A program made the translations under genes and the position numbers. DNA of 64,000 nt from a virus. The DNA is taken from IMG/VR virus record IMGVR_UViG_3300029267_002897, positions 1-64,000 of that record. One strand, 5' to 3'. The notes under the pieces were generated by a model. It searched no databases. It was not told the DNA's origin and worked only from the letters and a program-made list of their open reading frames with translations. Positions within the stretch are counted from its first letter, which is position 1. Each line of letters starts with the position of its first letter. This document shows positions 12,876 through 23,618 of the stretch, one piece after another.

Positions 12876-13089
12876 CGGCTACCTCCTCGATGTTCCAGTT
12901 GTCGGGGCGCAAGTCGAACGAGTACTCCGGGTCGGAGTGAATCGTGTAGTCGCCGTCGACAGCTTTCTGGCGGGCCTCCTCTTTGGTACGCGCGGTCACG
13001 CGCACCGGCTGATGATACACTTCGTGTTTCACCACGATGAAGGTCTTTTCCTCCAGTGGCTGCGAACCAGGAATTTCTGTTTGCTCCAT
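12859..13089 (-). CDS. small acidic protein
   Basis: 76 residues: strands (TFIVVKHEVYHQPVRVTAR), a helix (TKEEARQKAVDG) and an acidic tail (EEVADDEED). The strand-helix-strand layout resembles the N-terminal part of the 6710-7108 protein. Weak GAGG before the ATG at 13089. It overlaps the membrane-protein gene by 17 nt. Function unknown. Confidence 0.7.
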   Translation of the reverse strand: MEQTEIPGSQPLEEKTFIVVKHEVYHQPVRVTARTKEEARQKAVDGDYTIHSDPEYSFDLRPDNWNIEEVADDEED

Positions 13090-13398
13090 ATCGGAATCCT
13101 CGTTTAGAGAATTGTAGTAATAAACGCACTACTGAGTGAGCCAGGGAAGGTGAGACCAGAAGTCATTGTTCGTTGTTCGGATGGTTTCGCCTGATCTCGC
13201 TACTACGGGATTGCCCGGTAGCAGAGCCTCGAGAACGTAGGGCGCAAGGCCAGAGGTCTCGAGGAGGAGCGAGGGCTAACGTGGTCCAGATGGCCACGTC
13301 TTGAGGAGCGTTACGCTCCGCGTCTGTACAGCGTAGACTCTAGTGCGTTTTTTATTAAAAGAGAGAAGCCGTGCCACGTTACTCGATGCGAGGCCGTG

Positions 13399-13586
13399 AC
13401 CCAGTGTCCCGTGGGAGCTCGAAGGTTTTTATTTCTTCAGGCGTCTCGACGGTTTCAAGGTGCGGCCTTTGTCGGGTTCAATCGAAGCACTCCGTGCATG
13501 CGTAGTGTGGTTCTACCTGGTCGTACCTTGGAATCTCGAGGGGTCTGAAGGAATAAAAACCTTCGAGCTCCCGCGGGACACTGGGT
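13399..13586. repeat. 42-bp inverted repeat arms separated by about 104 nt
   Basis: 13399-13440 and 13545-13586 are reverse complements with two differences out of 42. Both differences are T opposite G, that is wobble pairs if the plus strand is transcribed and A-C mismatches if the minus strand is. Confidence 0.85.
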
Positions 13587-13798
13587 GCGAGCATTGAATA
13601 ATGCAGCCAGATAAAGCACAATGTCGTGACGTTACGCCACTGCTCCCGTTGAGAGCCCCCTGGAACCTTCTAACCTCCGGGAGAGGAGGTCTTCCGAATT
13701 CCTTCGACAAGAGTCGAGTGGGAGATATTCGACCAGCGAATTGCTCTGCGGGGTCTAACTTTGGGCACGGCTTCTCGGTCTGTTTGGTGGGATGTTCT

Positions 13799-13811
13799 TT
13801 TACCGCGTAAA
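13799..13811. repeat. perfect TTTAC-NNN-GTAAA palindrome
   Basis: TTTACCGCGTAAA in non-coding DNA 13 nt from tRNA-Lys. Confidence 0.8.
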
Positions 13812-13823
13812 GCTACGTATTTG

Positions 13824-13897
13824 TGAACCCGCTGGGATTCGAACCCAGGACACCAGGATTAAAAGTCCTGTGTTCTACCTGGCTGAACTACGGGTTC
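13824..13897 (-). tRNA. tRNA-Lys (anticodon TTT)
   Basis: Full cloverleaf on the minus strand: acceptor GAACCCG/CGGGTTC, D arm GTTC...GAAC, anticodon stem CAGGA/TCCTG around CTTTTAA, T arm CTGGG-TTCGAAT-CCCAG, discriminator A. CCA is not encoded. It starts directly at the stop codon of the upstream gene. Confidence 0.95.
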
Positions 13898-14597: not shown

Positions 14598-14618
14598 TGT
14601 GTTCTCCTTTTGGTTGAG

Positions 14619-14690
14619 CGCCTCCACCAGGACTCGAACCTGGAACTAAGAGATTGAAACCTCCTGCTCTACCAGTTGAACTATAGAGGC
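14619..14690 (-). tRNA. tRNA with atypical anticodon arm (isotype uncertain)
   Basis: Acceptor GCCTCTA/TGGAGGC (one G-U), D arm GTTC...GAGC and a perfect T arm CCAGG-TTCGAGT-CCTGG are present; discriminator G. The anticodon region AGGAG-GTTTCAAT-CTCTT pairs best with an 8-nt loop. A 7-nt loop would give TTC (Glu) or TCA (UGA-reading) but only with poor stems. A canonical tRNA-Glu(TTC) exists at 22065, so this one may be degenerate or specialised. Confidence 0.75.
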
Positions 14691-21884: not shown

Positions 21885-22064
21885 TGGTTTTTCCTGTTGG
21901 GAAATGTGCTGGGTGTACCGGGATTGTATTATGTTTCCGAGGTCCCAAACCCAGCGCGGACCAACGTGAAAGGTGGGGACGGGCACAGAAGAAAACCCCT
22001 GAGCGGCAGTATACCCGTCCCGCTCCGCATCCCAGCCTGACGTTTCCATGACCCACTGCCGCGG

Positions 22065-22138
22065 TGACTCCAACGGGATTTGAACCCGTGTTACTGGCGT
22101 GAAAGGCCAGTGTCCTGACCGGACTAGACGATGGAGTC
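22065..22138 (-). tRNA. tRNA-Glu (anticodon TTC)
   Basis: Minus strand: acceptor GACTCCA/TGGAGTC, anticodon stem CTGGC/GCCAG around CTTTCAC, T arm ACGGG-TTCAAAT-CCCGT, discriminator A. No encoded CCA. Confidence 0.95.
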
Positions 22139-22517
22139 AGGTGCAGACGTCACTGTGTTTACTTTGGCAGAAGCTGAGGCAAGGTAGGGAAGCATAGCGG
22201 ACCTCTCCGCAGCCTAAGCTGTCGCCAATGTTCAAGCGCAGTTAGTTGCTGCGCGTCTCGTGGGAAGTTACTTCCCGACCCTCGAGGTGCGAGAGTTCCG
22301 ACGTCTGCATGGATGCTACTACGCGTACGCCGGAAGGGGTCCTTCTCACTCGGGATGGCTAATTGTCCGAGTGGGTAGAGCCTCCCGGTGAGAGGACTTC
22401 CTTCCAAGGTGTTTCGGTTGGGGCGACTCCTGTGCCCTTTGGGGAGTTACTCCCCGGCCTGTTCAGCAAACCTGGGTCAGCTAGCTGACGGTTGCCTCTC
22501 CAGGCTCTAGCATCCGG
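22139..22517. ncRNA. structured non-coding RNA candidate between tRNA-Glu and tRNA-Gln
   Basis: No credible ORF. Dense perfect stems: TGCAGACGTC/GACGTCTGCA enclosing 22142-22309, GCGGA-CCTC-TCCGC, GCGCAG...CTGCGC (22236-22254), GGGAAGTTACTTCCC (22262-22276), CACTCGG...CCGAGTG, GTCC(TT)CTCAC/GTGAGAGGAC, GGGGAGTTACTCCCC (22441-22455) and GTCAGCTAGCTGAC. The two GTTAC hairpins match ones in the 13.1-13.8 kb RNA candidate, suggesting one RNA class. The strand is not proven; flanking tRNAs are minus. Confidence 0.6.
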
Positions 22518-22589
22518 CTGGGGCAGAAGGACTCGAACCTTCGTAGCGGGCACCAAAAGCCCGTGACCTGGCCACTGGTCGATGCCCCA
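22518..22589 (-). tRNA. tRNA-Gln (anticodon TTG)
   Basis: Minus strand: acceptor TGGGGCA/TGCCCCA, anticodon stem CGGGC/GCCCG around TTTTGGT, T arm GAAGG-TTCGAGT-CCTTC, discriminator G. No encoded CCA. Confidence 0.95.
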
Positions 22590-22592
22590 GAG

Positions 22593-22630
22593 GAAAAAAG
22601 AGCACTCCCCCCGGTGAAGGAGAGAGTGCA
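22593..22630 (-). terminator. terminator-like hairpin just upstream of tRNA-Gln
   Basis: Minus-strand GCACTCTCTCC ... GGGGGGAGTGC followed by TCTTTTTT, ending 4 nt before tRNA-Gln. Either it separates two transcripts or it is read through and serves in processing. Confidence 0.6.
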
Positions 22631-22958
22631 TAGAGACGGACAAAGCGGCCGGAACGTGGTGAGTCGGAGTTCTGTTACTCGAAGTTCAGCTGTTCTGCGT
22701 ATTCGGGTAATCAGGGTTAGTCGGAAGGTCGGAATTCATCTAGTCGGAGTTCGTCCGGTTTTTTGGCTCCCGGAAAACCCACTTTTTCTCTGGATTAAAT
22801 GTCCAGTTCTCGATTAGCAGTCGAGAGGTATACATCGTCTTCGATGCAGATGAATTGCTATGACCGCTCCGGACCGGCCTACGGCTTAGGGTGCCGAGCA
22901 AACCCTTGTTCCACGCACCGCTTGTCCTATGTAGAACGCCCCCGGGGGGACGTAGCTA
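22631..22958. other. non-coding region with stems and short direct repeats
   Basis: No credible ORF in about 330 nt. Contains AGTCGGAGTTC twice (22662-22672, 22742-22752) with a variant between, TTACTCGAA...TTCGGGTAA (one G-U in the plus sense), CTCGA...TCGAG, CATCG-TCTT-CGATG and a CCCCCGGGGGG block near 22941. It probably belongs to the same structured-RNA locus, but no boundaries can be set. Confidence 0.45.
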
Positions 22959-23618
22959 CTAGTCGACTGGGTAGTCGTCCAGAAGGGAAGGAGAGGCTCC
23001 GCGGCGGATGCCGCAATTGGCCTCGTGAATCAGCTCGTCGCAGAGGCGGAGCTGGGTGTGGTAGTGCTCCATCCGAGCGAGCACCTCGCTGGCCTTCTTC
23101 TTCGCGTACTTCTCCTTGAGCTTCTCGGTCCCCTCGGTAGCCTCGAGACGCTCGTTGACCGAGTGAATCAGCTCCGAGTCCTCGATGTCGACGCGCCGAC
23201 AGATGTCGTTGAGAGTCTTGCGTCGCGTGAGGAAGGACGCGAGCTTCTTGGTGATGGTGCCTCCGGCGAGCTTCATGTCCTCGGAGAAGTCCACGAAGAT
23301 GGACGACGGGCCGTTGACTTCTTCGTTGAAGTTCGCCCCCTGCACCACCTCGTCGACTTCGCGAAGCTTCTGCGAGTAGTAGTTGAGCTCGTGCTCGAGC
23401 TGCACGCGGTCCATCACCGGGAGCGTGCCGATGATGTCATCCAGGCCCTCGTGGCGCGCCGAGGTGCGCCGCAGGTTCTCCTGGAAGAGGTGCGGCGTGT
23501 TGAACAGCTTCTGCCGGAGCTGGACCTTGACGGAAAGCTCCTTGCGCCGCAACAGTAACTCGTCCAGCGTGTACTCTCGGTACTTCTCTTCGACCGGCTG
23601 GTCTTTTTCCTCGGGCAT
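22959..23618 (-). CDS. coiled-coil protein
   Basis: 219 residues, almost entirely helical and charged (LLLRRKELSVKVQLRQKLF, HELNYYSQKLREVDEVV, LKEKYAKKKASEVLARMEHYHTQLRLCDELIHEA). No known family recognised. Single gene between the structured RNA locus and the terminator of the next operon; GGAGGG precedes the ATG at 23618. Third-position G/C bias is marked, as in the 29089 gene, suggesting high expression. Confidence 0.8.
   Translation of the reverse strand: MPEEKDQPVEEKYREYTLDELLLRRKELSVKVQLRQKLFNTPHLFQENLRRTSARHEGLDDIIGTLPVMDRVQLEHELNYYSQKLREVDEVVQGANFNEEVNGPSSIFVDFSEDMKLAGGTITKKLASFLTRRKTLNDICRRVDIEDSELIHSVNERLEATEGTEKLKEKYAKKKASEVLARMEHYHTQLRLCDELIHEANCGIRRGASPSLLDDYPVD

Follow-up and report, generated by a model that had tools for sequence, protein, structure and literature searches.

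A conserved two-module structured element between tRNA-Glu and tRNA-Gln genes in a phage with a fused RNA polymerase

Very few classes of large structured phage RNA are described to our knowledge, and even for those studied most closely no function has been settled. At the level of DNA, the attC site of integrons is a single-stranded or cruciform site whose folding is conserved while its sequence turns over, and whose helices are exclusively Watson-Crick. Two RNAs offer the closest comparison for the locus described here: GOLLD, a large structured RNA of phages whose function is unknown, which often lies near tRNA islands and sometimes carries tRNAs in its linker, and ROOL, a large and ornate phage RNA near tRNAs for which neither a function nor a protein partner is known (PMC12286853).

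The locus lies in a 64,000-nucleotide stretch of phage DNA (the window) contained in a 179,063-base IMG/VR phage record, G000. A sequence-only reading of the window had proposed a second structured RNA wrapped around tRNA-Gln, beginning with about 380 nt without an ORF between tRNA-Glu and tRNA-Gln. This interval, 22139-22515, is indeed non-coding over its 377 nt, the ORFs within it being short, overlapping and at chance level. Two modules, E and D (Table 1), occupy it almost to the base, with ends only a few bases from the tRNAs. In module E, the closing helix P1 has 10-11 bp, in which TGCAGACGTC (22142-22151) pairs with GACGTCTGCA (22300-22309); this is the 10-bp helix of the earlier reading, although it encloses 148 nt and not 160. 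Each module contains one perfect 6-bp hairpin (HP1), whose loop reads G-UUA-C on the plus strand and G-UAA-C on the minus strand.

On the minus strand, folding of 22139-22515 goes well beyond that of shuffled controls (z about -6 to -8), a comparison that the earlier reading had named among its tests. The minus strand has a minimum free energy of -166.1 kcal/mol against -127.7 +- 6.1 for dinucleotide shuffles (z -6.3), and other shuffles gave z -7.7 and -7.9; for the plus strand, z is -4.5. For most equivalent loci in relatives, one or both strands reach z values between about -3 and -12, the weakly folding exceptions being position B in G003, G015, and position C in G009 and G010. Structure had also been claimed beyond tRNA-Gln. 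The 369 nt at 22590-22958 do show some folding, weaker than that between the tRNAs (z about -3.9 to -4.3 on the minus strand and -2.6 to -3.2 on the plus strand), but they hold no module and are not part of the module element. Short direct repeats, AGTCGGAGTTC, lie in this stretch where they had been placed, and weaker copies of them start near 22720 and near 22728.

Table 1. Features of the 22-kb locus, the 13-kb module, and the syntenic positions of equivalent loci.
Feature	Position	Strand	Description
13-kb module	13122-13350	.	P1 13122-13131 with 13341-13350; HP1 13305-13319
tRNA-Glu (UUC)	22063-22138	minus	ARAGORN and Rfam; abuts module E
Module E	22142-22309	.	P1, 5' ACU (22152-22154), HP1, HP2, UCC; plus-strand frame
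HP1 of module E	22262-22276	.	GGGAAG-UUA-CUUCCC (plus) / GGGAAG-UAA-CUUCCC (minus)
HP2 and UCC of module E	22277-22299	plus frame	HP2 22277-22296, UCC 22297-22299; directly precedes 3' arm of P1; from covariance model alignment
Module D	22311-22515	.	P1 22311-22318 with 22508-22515 (8 bp), HP1, further stems
HP1 of module D	22441-22455	.	GGGGAG-UUA-CUCCCC (plus) / UAA loop (minus)
tRNA-Gln (UUG)	22516-22589	minus	ARAGORN and Rfam; abuts module D
Terminator-like hairpin with U-run	22602-22629	minus	downstream of minus-strand ORF 22959-23618
AGTCGGAGTTC direct repeats	22662, 22742 (span 22662-22752)	plus	outside the modules
Terminator-like hairpin with U-rich tail	22757-22779	plus	
Position A	beside deoxynucleoside monophosphate kinase gene		G000 (132 kb), G003, G004, G005, G006, G007
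Position B (22-kb locus)	beside gene for 212-aa Gly-rich protein		G004, G012, G013, L341, L342
Position C	between convergent large terminase and DNA polymerase genes		20 loci

Perfect 6-bp hairpins with a G-UAA-C or G-UUA-C loop occur six times in the 179-kb record, at 13.3, 22.3, 22.4, 132.07, 132.21 and 132.39 kb, and all six lie inside non-coding structured loci. A fourth locus, at 80.1-80.7 kb, has wobble or variant versions of the hairpin. The proposal that the 22-kb locus is of the same kind as that at 13 kb is supported by the common hairpin and module order. Embedding among tRNAs holds at 22 kb, where the modules fill the inter-tRNA gap, but is not supported as general: in G000 the loci at 13 and 22 kb lie beside tRNAs, and those at 80 and 132 kb have none. 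A search for homologues next to tRNAs in related phages had been suggested; the position-B and position-C stretches that we checked were all without a tRNA. In the neighbourhood of the 13-kb module, the region 13108-13822 folds with z about -9.5 (minus) and -13 (plus), and 13399-13586 forms a 51-nt inverted repeat, 90% complementary, around an 86-nt loop. Further along the window, at 14618-14690, a tRNA-like gene of undetermined anticodon adjoins tRNA-Pro.

Relatives were collected with a profile of the fused beta/beta' RNA polymerase of G000, which found 69, and the larger records were examined. The family belongs to a clade of phages of roughly 170-200 kb with a fused multi-subunit RNA polymerase, in which the loci are syntenic at positions A, B and C despite diverged flanking proteins (about 30-70% identical). 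Across 28 records (2.42 Mb), G-UAA-C and its mirror image G-UUA-C ranked top among triloop-hairpin pentamers for non-coding placement and clustering, and 15 of the 24 perfect hairpins of the type are non-coding against a background of 14% (P 3e-8). On the terminase strand at position C, whose loci were obtained after the hairpin motif had been set, G-NNN-C triloop hairpins are nearly all G-UAN-C or G-UUA-C. Contig 3300027861_004665 (L323) is also a member. Other routes were less productive. DNA similarity in named phages was confined to tRNA-Glu, searches with single window proteins flanking the locus gave no confirmed match, and an exact 15-mer scan at first gave no informative homology to the 22-kb locus. 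The matches inspected from a two-hairpin pattern scan of viral contigs were coding repeats and were rejected. No terminase relatives were found in bacterial genomes. No family member was found in Salmonella phage Arash, which is distantly related through its RNA polymerase; it has unannotated gaps of 904 and 996 nt (L320 20752-21655 and 22541-23536), in which no module of the family was found.

Several other features were seen in these records. The G009 record carries, at 93.7-94.95 kb (L263 13734-14950), seven hairpins with a G-UAC-C loop and an eighth just beyond, all on one strand; this non-coding array (z about -12) seems to consist of related modules that use a different variant of the loop. 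In the G008 record, a tmRNA and over 35 tRNA genes are packed into 7 kb at 104-110.7 kb (L235), where no covariance-model match was obtained. The 179-kb phage record itself has a tmRNA, at L054 11829-12207, with the tag ADNVVELFPKVEAAPVAKAA. The fused RNA polymerase genes of L002 and L003 measure about 5.2-5.4 kb against 4.35 kb, and the insertion is intein-like.

Alignment of the position-C elements gave the order P1-GCU-variable-HP1-HP2-UCC-P1', and the grammar common to the loci is P1-RCU...hairpin-hairpin-UCC-P1'. Comparison of the sequences shows each module to comprise a long closing helix (P1), variable stems, an HP1 of 6-8 bp with a G-UUA/UAN-C loop, HP2, and a UCC joined to P1. An HP1 of at least 6 bp with such a loop is present in both module E and module D. 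In module E, P1 is flanked by RCU on its 5' side and UCC on its 3' side (ACU...UCC); module D has P1, and its 3' junction, CUC, deviates from the consensus. We trained a covariance model (R1) on 19 position-C elements, none of them from G000, and ran it over both strands of the 179 kb. Its top match was 22262-22321 in the plus-strand frame (27 bits, E 0.00088) and its second match was position C (E 0.005), both E-values being rough after a short calibration. A whole-module descriptor found 30 matches in 2.70 Mb against 0-2 in shuffles, counts that are partly circular, as descriptor and grammar were partly read off the same loci; the R1 test on G000 is independent. When each triplet was swapped through all 64, GCU and UCC each stood out alone, and a scan of the descriptor loop gave UAA, UUA and UAG. 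The ACU..UCC variant of the descriptor has a single match in 2.70 Mb, which is module E.

Compensatory change was assessed at position B, where the G004 and G012 loci align at about 58-67% identity. A structure was predicted from a single sequence and then mapped onto its partner, and in the control, substitutions were permuted among columns with the same base. Double compensatory changes numbered 29 and 34, against 11.4 +- 3.0 and 11.7 +- 3.3 expected; broken pairs were likewise fewer than expected, and one-sided changes were not enriched. Covariation between L341 and L342 was not significant. Pairing counts at HP1 are circular, as HP1 was picked by pairing, and were not relied on. Sequences that adjoin each other in L341 and L342 are separated in G013 by one additional, complete module, so modules can be gained or lost whole. 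They are arranged in tandem and sit at a few fixed gene junctions. Folding, module layout, conserved place and grammar, and compensatory change support a conserved structured element at 22139-22515.

On balance, we lean towards assigning 22139-22515, with its two modules, to an undescribed family of modular structured non-coding elements, and towards reading it as a likely co-transcribed, scaffold-type RNA. What we infer here concerns the transcription, processing, partner and function of the modules. They would be transcribed on the minus strand together with the tRNAs and, because they fill the inter-tRNA gap almost exactly, tRNA end-processing of that transcript would release them. Freed modules would fold as independent units, and one partner, from the phage or the host, may bind to their repeated HP1 hairpins. 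The RNA may resemble GOLLD or ROOL in its working while standing outside both families. The idea that the modules are nothing more than sequence-specific protein sites of the G-UAA-C type is weakened because the loops vary among genomes, where UAA, UUA, UAG, UAC, UAU and AUA are found.

Evidence on the strand conflicts between minus and plus, and the consensus frame sets polarity between loci, not transcription. At the 22-kb locus the minus strand is favoured by its stronger folding and by the close fit of the modules between the tRNAs, and at position A terminators lying on the gene strand count for it as well. A non-coding RNA might instead be made independently from the plus strand, antisense to the tRNAs, with the order P1-RCU...HP1-HP2-UCC-P1' and an end at the terminator-like site 22757-22779. 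It would agree with the plus-strand consensus frame and R1 match, and at 13 kb and most position-C loci folding is better on the UCC-frame strand. Yet at 22139-22515 it is the minus strand that folds better, no promoter-like site for a plus-strand transcript was found at the 22-kb locus, and antisense promoters would be required at A, B and 13 kb, so that we regard such an RNA as unlikely. Selection might instead act on folded DNA, a cruciform or single-stranded element for replication, recombination or packaging whose RNA copy is incidental. RNA helices are expected to show wobble pairs, and the helices here are near-perfect Watson-Crick, with no clear excess of G-U over A-C, which leaves room for a role at the DNA level. 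The enrichment of double but not one-sided changes points the same way, as do a DNA folding z of -6.0 and the polarity of the elements, which is opposite to that of the neighbouring genes at A, B and 13 kb, follows the terminase at C, and is mixed in G014. Against a DNA element stand the presence of several copies in each genome, placed beside tRNAs and at the ends of genes, the terminator-like hairpins found on the gene strand after the modules of position A, and a lean of one-sided changes at position C towards the polymerase strand (10:3, not significant); we consider it doubtful, although a main rival.

Two more conventional explanations fare worse than a co-transcribed module RNA. That the loci lie at gene ends with terminators nearby would suit an ordinary 3' untranslated or tRNA spacer, whose terminator-like or RNase-protection hairpins have no specific function, but synteny, a common grammar, compensatory changes and module gain and loss exceed what such a spacer offers, and we hold it very improbable. 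A diverged GOLLD or ROOL RNA would be large, ornate, phage-borne and beside tRNAs, as both are described (PMC12286853). Rfam searches of 21900-23000 and 13050-13850 gave no GOLLD or ROOL match up to E 10, and no family apart from tRNA was found at the 22-kb locus or at the loci searched in relatives (G009 to E 5, other relatives at the gathering score). As no Rfam model matches them, the loci searched are not filed under either family; tandem, self-contained modules at several loci are, moreover, not the layout described for GOLLD or ROOL, and descent from one of them is barely credible.

Tentatively, and with less conviction than we attach to the co-transcribed module family, the units of tandem-module RNA genes could build particles of RNA, or of RNA and protein, that are specific to the phage; alternatively, their grammar could operate in DNA, as folded single-strand sites of a new class. 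If so, phages of the clade would have several RNA genes each, built of interchangeable units that are joined solely by a common hairpin and junction grammar. The compact grammar, the several copies per genome and natural gain and loss make the modules countable, deletable and open to probing singly, and whether RNA or DNA folding is the target of selection is testable in the family.

Our search of open-access papers found no description of such modules. They resemble GOLLD as a large structured phage element, with tRNAs beside the 13- and 22-kb loci but not those at 80 or 132 kb, and differ from it as short repeated modules at several separate loci, where the tRNA is incidental and no covariance model matches. 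ROOL is described as one complex fold; here there are tandem modules with a common hairpin, again with no covariance-model match. Unlike attC as generally known, the modules have no recombinase or cassette linked to them; like attC, they keep their folding as the sequence changes, and their helices are Watson-Crick.
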